Source: Sorangiineae bacterium NIC37A_2
GTDB taxonomy: Bacteria > Myxococcota_A > Polyangia > Polyangiales > Polyangiaceae
Assembly (NCBI GenBank): GCA_002085155.1
Contig: NASX01000002.1
Coordinates: 28,720-83,909 of the forward strand
Length of the DNA stretch: 55,190 nt
Direction of reading: 5' to 3'
Shown: positions 1,584 to 7,943 of the stretch, piece after piece
How the letters are laid out: every line of letters begins with the position of its first letter
How positions within the stretch are numbered: the stretch's first letter is position 1
Position numbers and translations under genes: made by a program
Notes under the pieces: model-generated
Database searches by the model: none
What the model saw: only the letters and a program-made list of their open reading frames with translations
What the model was told of the DNA's origin: nothing

Positions 1584-2222
1584 ATGACCGACGAGACGAA
1601 CCAGGGGCGCCCCCTTCCGAGCGATCTCGAAGCTGAGTTTGCGCGGCGCGCGAAGAAGCAGATCCGTTCCCGAGCGAAGGCTGTGCGGCTCGGGCTTCCC
1701 GAGGCGGCCCGCCATGCCCGTTCCGAGCGCATTGTCGCGTCTCTCAGCGAACTGGACATCGTGCGGGCTGCTCGCGGTGTGGCCCTCTTCTGGCCGATGG
1801 TCGAGCGAGGCGAAGTCGACCTGCGACCGCTCCTTGGAATTTTGCGAGACCGCGACGTCGCGACCTTCTTCCCCTTCATGGAGCCCAAGGAGGGCGGATT
1901 CTCAACGGGCTTTCGTGAGGTCCGGCGAGAGAGCGATTTGGTCGAGCGCGGTCGGGGGTTCGTTGAGCCGACCGAAGGTCCCGCGGCGGCTCGCGGTCAA
2001 ATTGACGTAGTTATCGTGCCGGCACTGGCCGTCGATAGTCGCGGCTACCGGGTTGGTTACGGAGCTGGCTACTACGACGCGACGCTCGGCGACCTGTGTC
2101 CGCCGGCCGTGAGCGTAGTGGTTTGCTACGACTTCGAGCTCATGGCGGAGCTCCCTATTGAGAGGCATGACGTCCGCTGCGACCTTGTGGTCACCGACAA
2201 GAAGACGCTGCGTCCTGCCTGA
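1584..2222 (+). CDS. fau: 5-formyltetrahydrofolate cyclo-ligase
   Basis: A 212-residue cytoplasmic enzyme that uses ATP to convert 5-formyl-THF to 5,10-methenyl-THF, returning stored folate to one-carbon metabolism. The family signature GYRVGYGAGYYD (substrate and ATP-binding loop) is present near residue 155, and the N-terminal helix AKKQIRSRAKAVR matches the family pattern. The frame is open upstream to a GTG at 1536 and an ATG at 1560; the ATG at 1584 leaves a normal-length protein. It stands alone, divergent from the GT2 gene. Confidence 0.9.
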   Translation: MTDETNQGRPLPSDLEAEFARRAKKQIRSRAKAVRLGLPEAARHARSERIVASLSELDIVRAARGVALFWPMVERGEVDLRPLLGILRDRDVATFFPFMEPKEGGFSTGFREVRRESDLVERGRGFVEPTEGPAAARGQIDVVIVPALAVDSRGYRVGYGAGYYDATLGDLCPPAVSVVVCYDFELMAELPIERHDVRCDLVVTDKKTLRPA

Positions 2223-2248: not shown

Positions 2249-2776
2249 TCAGCGCTGCATGCGGCGCTTGCTGTCGGGGGATTTCACGCACTCGGCGCAG
2301 AGCCCGTAGAGCTCGTGCTTGTGATGGAGCAGGTGAAATCCATACTGACGGGCGATGCGCTCCTGGAGCTCTTCAATCAGGGGCTCTTCGAACTCGGTGA
2401 TTTTTCCGCAGTTCTCGCAGATGAGATGGTCGTGGTGGGAGCTTTCGTCCGCGAGCTCGTAGCGCGTGAGACCGTCGCCGAAATGGAGCTCATTGGCGAT
2501 GCCGCCTTCGCTCAACATGCGCATGGTCCGATAGACGGTCGCGTAACCGATCCGATGATCGATGGCGCGGACTCGCTCCAGTAGCTCATCGATCGTCAGG
2601 TGATCGGTCGTGTCGAAGAAGGTGGATACAATGATCCTCCGTTGCTCCGTGGTGCGGAGCCCCTTCTCGACCATGTAGTCGTCGAGGTTCTGACGAAGCC
2701 GTTCGAGGTTGGGCCCCTTGGGCCTCTCTCCAACAGGCAAGATCGGTTCGTCGTTCTCGGCCATGCCTTGATTCAT
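2249..2776 (-). CDS. fur: Fur-family metal-responsive transcriptional regulator
   Basis: 175 residues. The winged-helix DNA-recognition segment RIGYATVYRTMRML is followed by the HHDHLICENCGK metal motif and a second CxxC (CAEC) near the C-terminus, so the structural zinc site (two CxxC pairs) and the His-rich regulatory site are both intact. Fur proteins repress iron, zinc or peroxide genes when metal is bound; which metal applies here cannot be told from sequence. The ATG at 2776 has GGAAAG six bases upstream, and a second ATG lies at 2764. It is the last gene of the operon, 37 nt behind the degenerate P-type ATPase gene. Confidence 0.92.
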   Translation of the reverse strand: MNQGMAENDEPILPVGERPKGPNLERLRQNLDDYMVEKGLRTTEQRRIIVSTFFDTTDHLTIDELLERVRAIDHRIGYATVYRTMRMLSEGGIANELHFGDGLTRYELADESSHHDHLICENCGKITEFEEPLIEELQERIARQYGFHLLHHKHELYGLCAECVKSPDSKRRMQR

Positions 2777-2813
2777 GCCACACTTTCCGGGGGATCGATA
2801 CCCGGCGGGTTTG

Positions 2814-4967
2814 TTACGAATCCAGGGACGAAAGCGCCTTCGGAGCGCGTGCCATGAGACGTTTCGAAAGCAGGTAGCTGACCAGAGAAAGGCCTGGAAT
2901 CGTTGCGATCGGCACGACGGCAAGGGTCGCTGCCACTGTCGCGAAGGCGGCTGTCACGGAGTGCACGAGCAAGAGCTCGATACCAGACTGCCGGAGGTCG
3001 TGGGCGAGGAGAATCGCCTGGCCGCACGTGGGCAAATGGGAGCCGTAGACGCTCACTGAGCGACGCTCATCTCGAGGAGGGAAGGTCGATGAGAACGAGT
3101 TCAGGCCTCCGAACAGGATGGGCACGTCTGCGCCCGAGAGGGCGCGATCATCGGTTCCGAGTTGGCCGATGACGGCTACGGGAACGCCTGCCGTGCGCAA
3201 TCGTTCGACCTCCTCCTTCCGTTCGGTGCTTTCGCTCCGTACGTGGTCGATGCCGAGGCGTTTCGCGATGGCCTCGAGCGTATCTCGAGAGCCTCCGGAA
3301 AGCAGTGCCGGCTCGATGCCGCGCATGAGGAGGTTTTGCATCGTGGCGCGTGCTCCGGGGGAGAGCTCGTCGGAGAGGGCGATGACGCCGATGACATGTC
3401 CACCGAGGGCGACGATCAGGGCCGATTGCCCTTCTCCTTCGATGCCGCGGAGTTTCTCTTCGATCCAGGCGATGCTGATCTTGTGGCGAAGGAGGAATTC
3501 TCGCCCGCCCACGATCAACTCTTCGCCGTCACGAGTCAGACATCGCACGCTCGCACCTGTGCCCGCGGAGTGGCTGCGGCAGGTCTCGGGGGGCAGAGAC
3601 ATGCTCTCGAGGGCGACGATCGTGGCGCGGGCCGCGGGATGGTGAACGCTGCGGAGCGCTCCGGCCGCGAGCGAAATCACCCGTTCGCGCGAAGTGTCGC
3701 GGAATGCGTGGATTTCGGCGACGACGGGATCGCCCTTGAGCAGAGTGCCGCGGGTACAGAATACCGCGGTGCCGACGTGGCTTGAGGTTTCGAGCACCGA
3801 GGCGCGCGGGAACACGATGCCTCGCGCAGCGGCTTCGCCCAACACCCACCAAATCCGCTCTCGAAGCGCGCGGTGGAGGATGGGCGTTGACCAAGCAAGC
3901 CACGTCGCGGCGCCGACGAAGACCGCGCGCCACCAAGTGCTCGCCAAGTAGAGCGACACGATGGTGGAAAGGAGTGCGAGGATCGGGGCGATGCCCACCG
4001 CGAGCCAGCGCCCCACACGCACGATCGAATAGTCATCGATCAGCGAGCCTTTCCCCTCCTGAAGTACCAGCGAAAATGCCCGCTCGCGGCCGGTTCGATT
4101 GGCGGCGACGTGAAGCGGGCCGCCTTCGAGGACACAGCGCCCCGCCACGACCGCGCTCGCCTGGTGTACCTCGATCTCTGGGGCATCCGGCGTAAAGGGC
4201 TCGAGCTTTGCTGAGCCGCGGACAACCACCCCATCGACCGGGACGATCTCCCGCGCACGGACCTCTACCTCTTCGCCTGGCAGGAGATCCTGAGCCGCAA
4301 TCCAGAGCCTCCGCCCGCCGCGGATGGTGCGCCCCACGGCGGCCATGCGCTCCCTGAGCGGCGCTAAGCTCTCTGTCGCACGTCCACTGACCTCGGCCGC
4401 GAGTTGTCGCCCGAGGATAAGGAAGAGAGCCGAGAGGGCGACCGTAAGTACTAGATCGACGCTGGCCTCTCCTAGGTAGGCGGCCACTCCGAGGGGGACG
4501 ATCAGCAAGAAAAAGGGAAGCAGCTCGAGCGGGTCACTCAACCGGGCCGCTTCCCGGGCCCAGTCGAAAGCGGGCGGAGCAGGTTCGATGCCAGGTCGCG
4601 CCGCTACGGGCCAAAAGGTCTCGCTCTCCCGGTCCTCAGAAGAGAGTGGCCCGGTGGCAGGGTGCGGACGAGACTCGACGGGCGGTAAAGCTGCGAGTGG
4701 TTGGCCTCGGGACGAAATAGGAGCCGGGAAGGAGCCCGCTGTCGCCTCCCCCTCGACGCCGAGCGGTGCGTCTTGATCCGCTCCTTCGCTCAGAAGCCGC
4801 GTCTCAGGGGGCGCTTCATGACGAGCTTCGGCCTCGTAGCTCTCAGCATGAGCTACGGAGCAGAAGTAAACGACGCCCGATTCAAAAACTCGAACCTTGG
4901 GGGCGAACAGAGGATCGACGGGCGCGCCACAGGAGCCACAGCGAGCGGAGCTGAGATCGCGGTTCAC
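2814..4967 (-). CDS. Degenerate P1B-type ATPase-like protein (pseudo-ATPase) with N-terminal YHS/TRASH-like metal site
   Basis: 717 residues with the layout of a heavy-metal P1B-ATPase. An N-terminal YHS/TRASH-like module (C10, C13, then FCSVAH with C36 and H40) is followed by a Pro-rich linker, helices near 148-190, an actuator-like region, helices at about 320-360, P and N domains and a final helix pair near 665-700. The architecture is clear but the catalytic motifs are gone. DKTGT is replaced by CTRGT at 404-408 with no phosphorylatable Asp. TGES is TPDA near 259. The CPC membrane motif is STP at 360-362. TGD is SGG near 557. GDGxND is GQLGTD at 601-606. The nucleotide-domain HP (443-444) remains. 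The frame is intact over 2.1 kb, which argues for a maintained non-enzymatic role. The gene starts 9 nt after argF and precedes fur. A metal-sensing or scaffold role is only inference. Confidence 0.85.
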   Translation of the reverse strand: MNRDLSSARCGSCGAPVDPLFAPKVRVFESGVVYFCSVAHAESYEAEARHEAPPETRLLSEGADQDAPLGVEGEATAGSFPAPISSRGQPLAALPPVESRPHPATGPLSSEDRESETFWPVAARPGIEPAPPAFDWAREAARLSDPLELLPFFLLIVPLGVAAYLGEASVDLVLTVALSALFLILGRQLAAEVSGRATESLAPLRERMAAVGRTIRGGRRLWIAAQDLLPGEEVEVRAREIVPVDGVVVRGSAKLEPFTPDAPEIEVHQASAVVAGRCVLEGGPLHVAANRTGRERAFSLVLQEGKGSLIDDYSIVRVGRWLAVGIAPILALLSTIVSLYLASTWWRAVFVGAATWLAWSTPILHRALRERIWWVLGEAAARGIVFPRASVLETSSHVGTAVFCTRGTLLKGDPVVAEIHAFRDTSRERVISLAAGALRSVHHPAARATIVALESMSLPPETCRSHSAGTGASVRCLTRDGEELIVGGREFLLRHKISIAWIEEKLRGIEGEGQSALIVALGGHVIGVIALSDELSPGARATMQNLLMRGIEPALLSGGSRDTLEAIAKRLGIDHVRSESTERKEEVERLRTAGVPVAVIGQLGTDDRALSGADVPILFGGLNSFSSTFPPRDERRSVSVYGSHLPTCGQAILLAHDLRQSGIELLLVHSVTAAFATVAATLAVVPIATIPGLSLVSYLLSKRLMARAPKALSSLDS

Positions 4968-4976
4968 GCGCCCTCG

Positions 4977-5891
4977 TCAAAGGAGGCCGAAGGCCCAGAG
5001 CAAGAGCGCCTTGGAGGTGTGGAGGCGCGCTTCAGCTTCGTCCCAGACCAGACTCTGCGGACCTTCGATGACCTCTTCGGAGATTTCCTCGCCGCGGTGC
5101 GCGGGAAGACAATGAAGTACGATCGCCTTCGGATCCGCCTGCTTCAGGACAGCAGAGTTCAGCTGGTACCCGGCGAACGCCTGGAGGCGGGCTGCGGTCT
5201 CGCTCTCCTGGCCCATGCTCGTGAAGACGTCCGTCGAGAGCACATGGGCACCGCGAGCAGCCTCGAACGGGTCTTCATGGAGGACGACCTCGGCTCCCTG
5301 AGCGCGGGCTGCCTCTACGAGATCACGTTTCACCTCGAAGCCCTTGGGACAGGCGAGGTGCAGCGTGCCGCGCAAGATGCCCACGGCTTCCAGCCACGAA
5401 TTGGCCATATTGTTGCCGTCTCCGATCCAAGCGAACTTGAGCCCACTCAAGGTCCCAAAGTGACGGCGAGTGGTCTGAAGATCGGCACAGAGCTGCATCG
5501 GGTGACTCTGATCGGTGAGCGCGTTCAGGACCGGAACGTCCACGTACCGAATCATCTCTTCGAGTCGACTCTGATCATGAGTGCGGAAGGTGATGCCGTG
5601 GACCATCCGGCCGAGCACGCGCGCAGTGTCGCTGATCGGCTCACCTCGCCCCATTTGAGAGCCCGCCTGCGTGATGACAACAGGACTCCCCCCGAGCTCG
5701 TTCACGGCCACTTCGAGCGAGAGGCGAGTGCGCGTGGAGGCCTTCTCGAACACGAGAGCGATCTGTTTCCCTGCCAGAGGACGCTCGCTGATGCGACCAC
5801 GTTGTTCTTTCTGCCGATCGGCCTCGTCCAAGATGGAGAGGAGGCCCTGTGCGTCGCCGAGGTCAGCCAAGTTTCGGAAATGTCGAGTCAT
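4977..5891 (-). CDS. argF: Ornithine carbamoyltransferase
   Basis: 304 residues, full length. It forms citrulline from ornithine and carbamoyl phosphate in arginine biosynthesis. The carbamoyl-phosphate loop ASTRTR, the HPMQ motif, DVFTSMGQE and the ornithine-binding HCLPAHRGEE are all present. It lies 31 nt after argD and 9 nt before the pseudo-ATPase gene, so it is probably co-transcribed with both. I see no ARG-box-like operator in the short gaps. Confidence 0.95.
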   Translation of the reverse strand: MTRHFRNLADLGDAQGLLSILDEADRQKEQRGRISERPLAGKQIALVFEKASTRTRLSLEVAVNELGGSPVVITQAGSQMGRGEPISDTARVLGRMVHGITFRTHDQSRLEEMIRYVDVPVLNALTDQSHPMQLCADLQTTRRHFGTLSGLKFAWIGDGNNMANSWLEAVGILRGTLHLACPKGFEVKRDLVEAARAQGAEVVLHEDPFEAARGAHVLSTDVFTSMGQESETAARLQAFAGYQLNSAVLKQADPKAIVLHCLPAHRGEEISEEVIEGPQSLVWDEAEARLHTSKALLLWAFGLL

Positions 5892-5922
5892 GGTCGTCGC
5901 GTCAAAAGGAGGTCTCGGGAGT

Positions 5923-7143
5923 TTAGGACATCAGAGTCTCTTCGAGCAGGGTCAGACCCTCCTCAAACTCTTCATCGCTGATGGTGAGGGGAGGAGTGAA
6001 GCGGAGCGCGTTCGAGCCCGCCAACGTCACGAGCAGACCTCGGTCCCGCAACTGGCCCAGGAGCGCGCTGGCACTCTGTTCCGGGACGAGCTCAATGGCT
6101 TGCAGGAGACCGCGACCGGTCCTTCGGGTGATGAGGGGCGAGCGCGAGCGGAGCGTGTCGAGCCGGTCGGCCAGCCGAGCCCCCAGGGTCTGCACGCGGA
6201 CGAGGAGTGACTCCTTGTCCAGGGTGCGCAGGACGGCGAGGGCGGCTGCGCTCGCGAGAGGATTCCCTCCGAAGGTCGAGCCGTGGCTCCCTTTGGGAAG
6301 AGACGCGGCCAAATGTTCGCCGGTCAGGAGAGCGCCGATCGGTACACCTCCGCCCAATCCCTTCGCCAGAGTGAGCGCGTCCGGCCGGGCGTCTTCCGCC
6401 TCAATAGCCAAGAACGTGCCTGTGCGGCCGACGCCGGTCTGAATCTCGTCCACCAAGAGCAATGCTCCGGCCCGCGTGGCCAGCTCGCGCAGTGAGCGCA
6501 GGAACCCAGGGGGGGCTTCGATGGCTCCCGCCTCCCCGAGCACTGGCTCTACGATGATGCCGGCCGTGCGCGAGGAGAGGCGCGCTTCGACAGCGGAAAG
6601 ATCTCCGTAGGGCACGTGTGAAACGGGGCCGAGGGGTCCGAAGCCCTGCCGATACTTGGCTGTGCCCGTCGCCGCGAGCGAACCCAAGGTCCGCCCGTGG
6701 AACGCGTTTTCGAAGGCGATGATCTCGACGCGCTCCGACTCGCCACGCTCGAAGAAATGGCGCCGAGCCAGCTTGAGCATGGCCTCGTTGGCTTCGGTTC
6801 CTGAGTTGCAGAAAAATGCGCGAGAGAAGCCCGTCCGCCGTGTGAGGTCTTCGGCCAAGAGGACGTTGGGCTCGTTATGGTAATAGTTGGACGTGTGGAT
6901 CAGCTTCGCCGCCTGATCCTGAATGGCCTTGACGAGTTCAGGATGTCCATGGCCGAGCGCGCTGACGGCGACGCCTGCATAGAAGTCGATGTACCGTTTT
7001 CCATTTTGGTCCCAGAGCTTCGCACCTTCGCCTCGAACGAGGACGACACCAGGGCGCGCGTAGTTCGGATAGAGACAGCGCTCCGCCGTCTCGGCGAGGA
7101 GTTGAGTTTCCGAAGGGGGGTCGTCTTTGGGCAGGCTGTTCAT
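5923..7143 (-). CDS. argD: Acetylornithine aminotransferase
   Basis: 406 residues; a PLP-dependent class III aminotransferase that makes N-acetylornithine from the semialdehyde. It shows FCNSGTEANEAMLKLAR, AFHGRTLGSL, LLLVDEIQTGVGRTG and the PLP lysine in TLAKGLGGG. The frame extends upstream to 7308, but the ATG at 7143 overlaps the stop of the HAD gene as ATGA, which settles the start and implies translational coupling. Close relatives include succinylornithine and other omega-aminotransferases, but the adjacent argF supports ArgD. Confidence 0.93.
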   Translation of the reverse strand: MNSLPKDDPPSETQLLAETAERCLYPNYARPGVVLVRGEGAKLWDQNGKRYIDFYAGVAVSALGHGHPELVKAIQDQAAKLIHTSNYYHNEPNVLLAEDLTRRTGFSRAFFCNSGTEANEAMLKLARRHFFERGESERVEIIAFENAFHGRTLGSLAATGTAKYRQGFGPLGPVSHVPYGDLSAVEARLSSRTAGIIVEPVLGEAGAIEAPPGFLRSLRELATRAGALLLVDEIQTGVGRTGTFLAIEAEDARPDALTLAKGLGGGVPIGALLTGEHLAASLPKGSHGSTFGGNPLASAAALAVLRTLDKESLLVRVQTLGARLADRLDTLRSRSPLITRRTGRGLLQAIELVPEQSASALLGQLRDRGLLVTLAGSNALRFTPPLTISDEEFEEGLTLLEETLMS

Positions 7144-7943
7144 GACGGTGAAGAGGACGGTGAGATCACATTGCGAGCGGCGGAGATTCGTCTCGCCGCT
7201 TCCAAAAAGCCATGGCTTTGAGCCAGTTTTGTTTGAAAGCGCGGCAGGAGGTGGAAGCGCCCCCGGAGGTTCTGCACGCCGATGGTCGTGCGAAACGCGG
7301 CGAAGCATGGCGCATCGTTCTCGCTGTCGCCAATGAACGCAAAACGCCGCAAAATCTCCGTCGAATCGTGACCGCGCTCCGCGAGAAAGCGTACGGCTCC
7401 AGTGGCCTTGTCGAGCCGGTCCCAGGTCAGGTGCAGGTGAACGCTCGAGCGCGTCACCCTTGCTCCCGCCTCACGGGCGAGGCGTGTCGCTTGCGCGATG
7501 TCCTCTTCGCGCGCCCGCTCATGCTCTCCAATGTCGAAGGTGAAGTCGCTGATCCGCGCACCCGAGTCGTCCGCGGGGACGAGCCCTGGCACCGCGGTTC
7601 GAACGTGCGCAATGAGCTCCTGAAGACGCGCGCGTCGCTCGGCCCGTAGAAGGGGGCTGACGCTATCTCGCGCCACGATGCGCCGACCTTCACGAAAGAA
7701 CGCGACAGCTCCGTTCTCACCGATCGCGCCGCTCACGGGGAGAACATGAGCGAGCGTCTGTGCCCAGGCGATGGGCCTTCCGGTGAGCGCGATGAGCTCG
7801 AGGCCGGCTCCTTTGAGCAGCTCCAGTGCGGTCAGGGCCTCACAGGTAAGGAGGCCGTGCTCGAGGAACGTGTCGTCGAGATCGAAGAGGAGTCCGCGGA
7901 GGTCCAGTGCTTCTTCAGGTGTGAGTGCTTCGAGAGGCAACAT
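7140..7943 (-). CDS. HAD-superfamily (IIB-type) phosphatase
   Basis: 267 residues. HAD motif I is LLFDLDDTFLEHG, motif II ALTGRP, and motif IV FIGDSENDAPCF, with a type-IIB-like cap carrying IGENGAVAFF. This matches Cof or mannosyl-3-phosphoglycerate phosphatase relatives, which remove phosphate from sugar phosphates and similar small molecules; the substrate is unknown. It is the first gene of the argD-argF operon and overlaps argD by 4 nt. Confidence 0.82.
   Translation of the reverse strand: MLPLEALTPEEALDLRGLLFDLDDTFLEHGLLTCEALTALELLKGAGLELIALTGRPIAWAQTLAHVLPVSGAIGENGAVAFFREGRRIVARDSVSPLLRAERRARLQELIAHVRTAVPGLVPADDSGARISDFTFDIGEHERAREEDIAQATRLAREAGARVTRSSVHLHLTWDRLDKATGAVRFLAERGHDSTEILRRFAFIGDSENDAPCFAAFRTTIGVQNLRGRFHLLPRFQTKLAQSHGFLEAARRISAARNVISPSSSPS

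Follow-up and report, generated by a model that had tools for sequence, protein, structure and literature searches.

A putative pseudoenzyme family derived from P1B-type ATPases and kept in most sampled genomes of a myxobacterial order

The window analysed here, a 55,190-nucleotide stretch of DNA, carries one member of a family of P1B-ATPase relatives that keep the cytosolic domains of the pumps and have had most of the catalytic and transport motifs replaced. Judged from its sequence, the family protein is almost certainly not a pump. It very probably acts as some form of sensor or scaffold, a reuse made probable by the loss of the pump parts from a gene that is nevertheless kept in most genomes of the order; this class of roles, put forward in the first-pass annotation as a metal sensor, chaperone or assembly scaffold, remains the likeliest one. 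Our preferred reading, which we hold tentatively and as slightly short of probable, is that of a pseudoenzyme derived from a P1B heavy-metal ATPase, which would serve as a membrane-tethered sensor or scaffold with a ligand- and metal-dependent head and a probable partner in arginine biosynthesis. Taken by itself, the tie to arginine metabolism is possible though doubtful.

The pseudo-P1B-ATPase gene (2814..4967, minus strand) was delineated from the ORF listing, Pfam and the family comparisons. As first described, it is an intact frame of 717 residues, with a GTG start and no internal stop. Its GC content by codon position (0.71/0.53/0.72, against 0.69/0.44/0.73 for argF and 0.69/0.49/0.76 for argD) is of the coding type. 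Pfam matched the protein to PF00122 (E1-E2 ATPase) and PF00702 (HAD hydrolase), both over the cut-off, and a sequence search of the PDB returned CopA (3j08, E 1.4e-32) as the top solved relative. The gene is part of an operon-like same-strand run, argD-argF-pseudo-ATPase-fur (2249-7308). This run comprises an argD-type class-III aminotransferase (whole ORF 5923..7308, minus strand, Pfam Aminotran_3; the true start is probably near 7143), an argF-type carbamoyltransferase (4977..5891, minus strand, Pfam OTCace and OTCace_N), whose stop is separated by 9 nt from the start of the pseudo-ATPase gene, and fur (2249..2776, minus strand, PF01475, start at 2776 or 2764). The 37-nt gap between the pseudo-ATPase gene and the downstream fur is as reported earlier. 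A 5-formyltetrahydrofolate cyclo-ligase gene (1584-2222, plus strand) faces the run, and several relatives, L021 and L055 among them, show a similar gene order.

The motif register of the window protein was read by alignment with ordinary pumps. The phosphorylation motif DKTGT is replaced by a degenerate C404-T-R-G-T408 (3744..3758, minus strand), TGE is absent, the TGD site reads S-G-G559, and the GDGxND site reads G601-Q-L-G-T-D606, with the last Asp alone kept. The catalytic Lys position is occupied by R583, while the CPC site corresponds approximately to S-T-P (360-362), two alignments disagreeing there by about one residue. The first-pass annotation had called the protein catalytically dead on the loss of DKTGT, the TGE Glu, CPC, the TGD Asp and the first GDGxND Asp, and on the sequence we agree on every one of these losses.

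Comparisons across the family used a 79-row alignment, which excludes 14 duplicate loci and L115; a 73-row set, from which L038 (from the genus of the window), L102, L106, L110, L112 and L113 were further removed as short or split; and a second set of 29 family members from other taxonomic families of the order. The 29-row set is kept apart from the 79-row set by taxonomic family and not by a sequence comparison of the genomes, and start codons of the relatives were chosen by rule. The phospho-Asp is absent from every member that has a letter at position 404 (78/78 and 29/29, 107 in all; L112 has none), and Cys takes its place in 76 of them. DKTGT is intact, on the other hand, in 24/24 ordinary P-type paralogues, those retrieved from a larger number of paralogue matches. 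The TGE Glu column, which holds Glu in 23/23 pumps, contains Ala in 58 of the 73 family rows, Ser in 10, Gly in 3, Asp in 1 and a gap in 1. The first Asp of GDGxND is lost in the family and the last, D606, is kept in 76/77 rows and in 29/29 of the second set. The replacement residues are themselves consistent: Arg stands at the catalytic Lys position (R583) in 74/77 rows and 26/29 of the second set, and Arg is found at 464, 489, 540 and 583 in 73-77 of 77 rows. R406 is present in 73/78 rows, falling to 16/29 in the second set.

None of the triplets CPC, SPC, CPH or TPC was found in helix 4 of the window protein, of 71 of the 72 other rows or of the 29 members of the second set. The exception is L050, a deep-branching member from order family f6, whose helix 4 carries TPC although Cys occupies the phospho-Asp position; this triplet could be left over from the metal site. 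In the second set, 28/29 members keep a proline without the cysteines at this site, the exact register being unsure, and these prolines together with the TPC of L050 may be remnants from a loss that went step by step. The first-pass annotation would have read DKTGT and CPC in relatives as the mark of a decaying transporter; among the 107 members we found neither an Asp at the phosphorylation site nor a helix-4 CPC. By alignment, the motif losses are family-wide and not an oddity of one genome. The three proteins scanned scored 161-216 bits against the NCBIfam model TIGR01525 (cut-off 346), below the curated P1B cut-offs, and the general TIGR01494 cut-off was passed by two of them and failed by the window protein.

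The predicted structure of the window protein (mean pLDDT 81.8, pTM 0.74) has a folded finger at the N-terminus, then a floppy linker (52-129), and A, P and N domains further on; its helices are consistent with six membrane spans. It matched CopA (7r0g_A; Z 25.0, 571 residues, rmsd 8.2) and KdpB (6hra_B; Z 21.8, 558 residues, rmsd 4.4). The actuator domain without TGE (aa 201-305; 4053..4367, minus strand) was assigned from PF00122 and a match to the A domain of A. fulgidus CopA (2hc8, Z 17.1). It is followed by membrane helices 3-4 with the replaced CPC site (aa 314-381; 3825..4028, minus strand; alignments and model), the nucleotide-binding domain (aa 421-526; 3390..3707, minus strand; alignment and structure match) and the second half of the P domain, which holds R583 and D606 (aa 527-625; 3093..3389, minus strand; alignments). 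When hydrophobic segments preceding the A domain were counted by a hydropathy scan of the 73 rows, 64 rows had four, 6 had three and 3 had two. The window copy is among these last three, with two segments by both model and scan. The earlier claim that the whole P1B layout is kept stands for the A/P/N/membrane fold and fails for the helix pair before the A domain. Since 64/73 rows have four such segments and the window two, the eight-span layout is probably ancestral and the window copy probably lost the extra N-terminal pair.

The N-terminus is predicted to form a TRASH/L24e-like treble-clef finger (aa 6-45; 4833..4952, minus strand), assigned from Cys conservation, Pfam in relatives, the model and Foldseek. 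Its pattern in the window is C10-x2-C13-x22-C36-x3-H40, and most relatives have Cys at position 40. C10 and C13 are conserved in 71/71 rows, C36 in 70/72 and Cys or His at position 40 in 71/72, the remaining rows lacking the region; all four Cys are present in 29/29 of the second set. Pfam matched the finger of 47 members to DUF7576 (22/47), TRASH (8/47) and zf-FCS (2/47), and gave no finger domain on the window protein itself. Folded alone, the finger reached pLDDT 82.9. Foldseek placed archaeal large-subunit ribosomal proteins on top (best E 0.057, prob 0.99), which, going by the name on one match row, we take to be of the L24e type, and the TRASH domain of ZMYM5 at rank 28 (E 0.82). None of these matches reached E 0.001, so they are weak, though in line with the DUF7576, TRASH and FCS matches from Pfam. 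A mostly disordered linker (aa 47-145; 4533..4829, minus strand; pLDDT <50 at 52-129), which has the lowest mean identity in the family, joins the finger to the pump-like part. In L032, on a contig shared with L093, the linker is made up of a long stretch of Asp-Ala and Asp-Ser repeats.

The family occurs as one match per genome in 60 of 76 genomes sampled from the order to which the window belongs (54/64 of those of good quality). It is absent from the other 16, ten of the 64 good-quality genomes and both sampled members of one genus (g12) in the window's own family among them, so that it is not essential everywhere. A search of 39 genomes, the window's own included, gave some match in 37, and the family model separated 31 orthologue loci (421-960 bits) from two ordinary pumps (222-264). 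No family member was found in 117 genomes of the phylum outside the order, 78 of which were counted without individual listing; none scored above 317 bits. All 19 scores of at least 561 bits in this phylum-wide draw (n=140) fell among the order's 23 genomes. A scan of the genome_contigs collection yielded 62 loci, 61 of them in Polyangiaceae, Myxococcales, Myxococcota, Deltaproteobacteria and one Proteobacteria record, with patterns fitted to the Polyangiaceae branch that would miss far branches. L115 (Ancylobacter), the remaining locus and from outside the order, was dropped as an ordinary pump with DKTGT. Among the matches listed in a plasmid search with a Sorangium member there were only ordinary P-type ATPases, none covering 80% of the query. 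In a tree built without the motif columns by a quick method, the family forms one clade apart from ordinary pumps (SH-aLRT 99). Within it, a 64-row branch holding the argD-linked loci has a support of 96 and an 8-row branch with the argH-linked loci of that set a support of 98. The window copy sits on a long, fast branch (1.47).

Gene neighbours were identified by tblastn, with Pfam used once each for argH (L034) and for the fur of L173. Of the 69 loci with enough flank, 56 have a same-strand argD no more than 1.1 kb upstream, either directly adjacent or separated by argF, and 21 have argF upstream. In 24 loci of other branches argH stands beside the gene instead: it follows in 6/72 first-set and 16/29 second-set loci and is divergent in L037 and L163, one from each set. 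Often argH is followed by a gene that, from its sequence, we take to be of the lysA type. In order family f6 (nine second-set rows and L050) no arg gene adjoins the family gene and the neighbours vary by genome; Pfam identified a ribosome recycling factor by L171, a protein kinase by L169 and YkuD near L050. An L,D-transpeptidase-like gene lies about 130 nt or less upstream of the pseudo-ATPase in L034, L040, L152, L153, L154, L161 and L164, called by similarity to the L034 gene, with Pfam YkuD on the L050 homologue only. At 24 ordinary P-type loci we found no arg, fur or lysA match, a weak control because the flank was about 1.5 kb or less in 22 of them. Since arg genes flank the family gene on one side in some branches and on the other side in others, they point to an old arg cluster around it or to a functional tie. 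The linkage may be an inherited position, and synteny cannot separate the two.

Working from data on fold, motif loss, selection in relatives, distribution and neighbours, we infer a ligand, a metal, a partner and a signal as follows. The membrane helices would act mainly as an anchor, while the Cys4 finger (Cys3His in the window), on its flexible tether, would bind zinc or another soft metal, although it may be structural only. The A/P/N head would keep binding nucleotide or another phosphorylated ligand through its N domain. The P-domain pocket would have lost its Mg2+/phosphoryl Asp residues and gained Cys and Arg (C404, R406, R583 and often H/R602), a change that we propose lets a ligand be bound without hydrolysis. 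P-type ATPase chemistry needs the Asp residues of the Mg2+/phosphoryl site for phosphorylation and transport; with these mostly gone and Arg and Cys in their place, both steps are impossible by that chemistry. The head would change shape with ligand and metal, and a partner would then read that shape, in the manner of a sensor or scaffold, and arginine biosynthesis is the likeliest candidate because argD/argF or argH adjoin the gene. A narrower version, in which a stand-alone pseudo-pump senses a phosphorylated metabolite in its basic Cys/Arg pocket and regulates or scaffolds arginine biosynthesis throughout the order, we regard as rather unlikely.

A ligand pocket is favoured because the HP and GxG motifs of the N domain are retained and the new arginines are near-invariant. 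The His of HP is present in 56/78 rows and each Gly of GxG in 76/77; the window keeps H443 and G471 and has Ser for the second Gly. These motifs would be needless in a scaffold or chaperone with a purely structural task, keeping a membrane complex together without binding a signal, its head and finger being protein-binding surfaces only. The absence of catalytic motifs, the conservation of P, N and finger, and the flexible tether would all suit such a protein, and the window copy has after all lost a GxG glycine; we consider this alternative unlikely, but the strongest of the rivals.

The finger, being nearly invariant, also invites a reading in which it senses metal and tunes Fur or iron/zinc homeostasis. 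Across the family, fur lies within 300 nt in 30/73 loci, downstream on the same strand in 24 and convergent in 6, and L173 (f8) has fur just downstream with no argD found in 4.6 kb upstream. However, 43/73 loci lack fur inside 300 nt, only 1/29 of the second set has it, and none of the 24 argH-adjacent loci gave a fur match in the flank covered. A constant adjacency of fur, which the first-pass annotation had proposed to check, is contradicted by these counts, arg genes being commoner neighbours, and the fur operon of the window is not supported as general evidence for metal sensing. Synteny fails to support a Fur partnership as the general role, and the idea is kept as an improbable rival to the arginine-linked sensor or scaffold.

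A new chemistry was considered as well, in which Cys404, set in the HAD-fold pocket along with the conserved arginines, would serve as nucleophile or redox group. Cys stands where the nucleophile would be in 61 of 78 rows, in a P domain under strong selection. A second Cys at family position 564 (TCEAI), past the SGD motif, accompanies Cys404 in 49/79 rows, and the two could form a Cys pair in the pocket. Position 404 is nevertheless not Cys in 17/78 rows (S 7, N 2, L 2, A 2, V 2, F 1, M 1; D or E in none) and in 14/29 of the second set (C 15, S 6, L 6, A 2), and C564 is missing from the window, which has Leu, and from all nine printed deep rows. Because Cys404 varies in this way, we rate an enzymatic role as very unlikely.

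We then compared substitution patterns in eight pairs of relatives by the Nei-Gojobori method. Whole-gene dN/dS was 0.08-0.37, with three pairs sharing L068 and a high GC content that may distort dS. It was 0.02-0.15 for the P domain in 8/8 pairs and 0-0.12 for the N domain in 7/8, the remaining pair (L096/L099) giving 0.30; the purifying selection that the first-pass annotation had proposed to look for is thus seen in both domains. A membrane segment was below P or N in five pairs (L068/L073, L077/L078, L077/L114, L054/L055 and L048/L052). Mean pairwise identity in the family was 60.1% for P, 50.9% for N, 47.0% for the finger, 40.6% for A, 38.2% for TM5-6, 30.0% for TM3-4 and 28.6% for TM1-2. 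In 23 ordinary pumps (C_L118 being excluded from the pairwise means) it was 57-62% for TM, 58.0% for P, 54.8% for A and 41.2% for N, the value in the finger columns being meaningless. By this measure, P is equally conserved in family and pumps, N more so in the family, and the transport path much less.

These values, the order-wide single-copy retention, the consistent replacement residues and the coding GC pattern argue strongly that the gene is selected and not decaying, at least in the relatives. A decaying transporter gene, open by chance, would fit the fast-evolving window copy without its helix pair, the 16 genomes of the order without the gene and the two loci from MAGs with a split frame (L106 and L113, each in two open pieces, which may be assembly errors). 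Such splits affect 2 of 61 loci, several others being cut only by contig ends, far from the frameshifts in most orthologues that decay had been expected to leave. We therefore rejected decay for the relatives on frames, dN/dS and retention, in agreement with the first-pass annotation, and not fully for the window copy, where the case is less certain. That copy keeps 35 of 44 columns conserved at 95% or more, against 67 of 227 columns conserved at 40-70%, and so still looks constrained; decay as an account of the family is highly improbable. A still-active transporter of unusual chemistry, for which the A/P/N/membrane layout and the helix-4 TPC of L050 could be cited, was rejected on its motifs, which lack a phosphorylatable Asp, the dephosphorylation Glu and CPC, and on the lost conservation of its helices, and we give it next to no credence.

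Among the matches listed in a search of the open-licence literature, none described a conserved bacterial family of P-type-ATPase pseudoenzymes, and the accessible part of one further source mentions no inactive P-type ATPase family (PMC10654040). This suggests that a pseudoenzyme family derived from P1B ATPases is apparently undescribed, although motif-altered P-type relatives are already known. Going by the NCBIfam scores, public annotation may call the family genes P-type or cation ATPases, and tallies of myxobacterial metal transporters would then be misleading. Members in Sorangium cellulosum, Polyangium and Minicystis rosea make the function testable.

Of the known systems, the P1B ATPases (CopA, ZntA, CadA; TIGR01525/01511/01512) share the A/P/N/membrane fold and sequence ancestry with the family, CopA being the best match by sequence and in the realigned fold list. 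The family differs from them in lacking the phospho-Asp, TGE, CPC and the first GDGxND Asp, and in its poorly conserved helices. KdpB, the active phosphorylating subunit of a complex that pumps K+, has the same domain arrangement as the model. The finger shares its Cys pattern, probably its fold and, in some members, weak Pfam matches with the TRASH, zf-FCS and L24e treble clefs, and differs from these in being attached to an inactive pump through a long linker. P1B pumps are described, in the accessible part of the source, as having four hydrophobic segments before the A domain (PMC3896382), a feature shared by 64/73 family rows. A degenerate P4-ATPase domain that has lost most signatures is reported, in the available text, from the signalling protein GC-beta of Plasmodium (PMC6592433); that precedent is eukaryotic, of the P4 class and within a guanylate cyclase protein. 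According to the accessible text of a survey, 99.77% of identified P-type ATPases contain DKTGT, and 22 of 9,634 sequences lack an intact motif through single point changes, possibly as errors, non-functional proteins or specialised ones (PMC3896382). Those entries and the present family are both P-type relatives with an altered motif, whereas here a whole clade has most of its motifs replaced. A clade without the phospho-Asp but with a selected cytosolic head suggests that the P-type machine can be retained for a use other than pumping.
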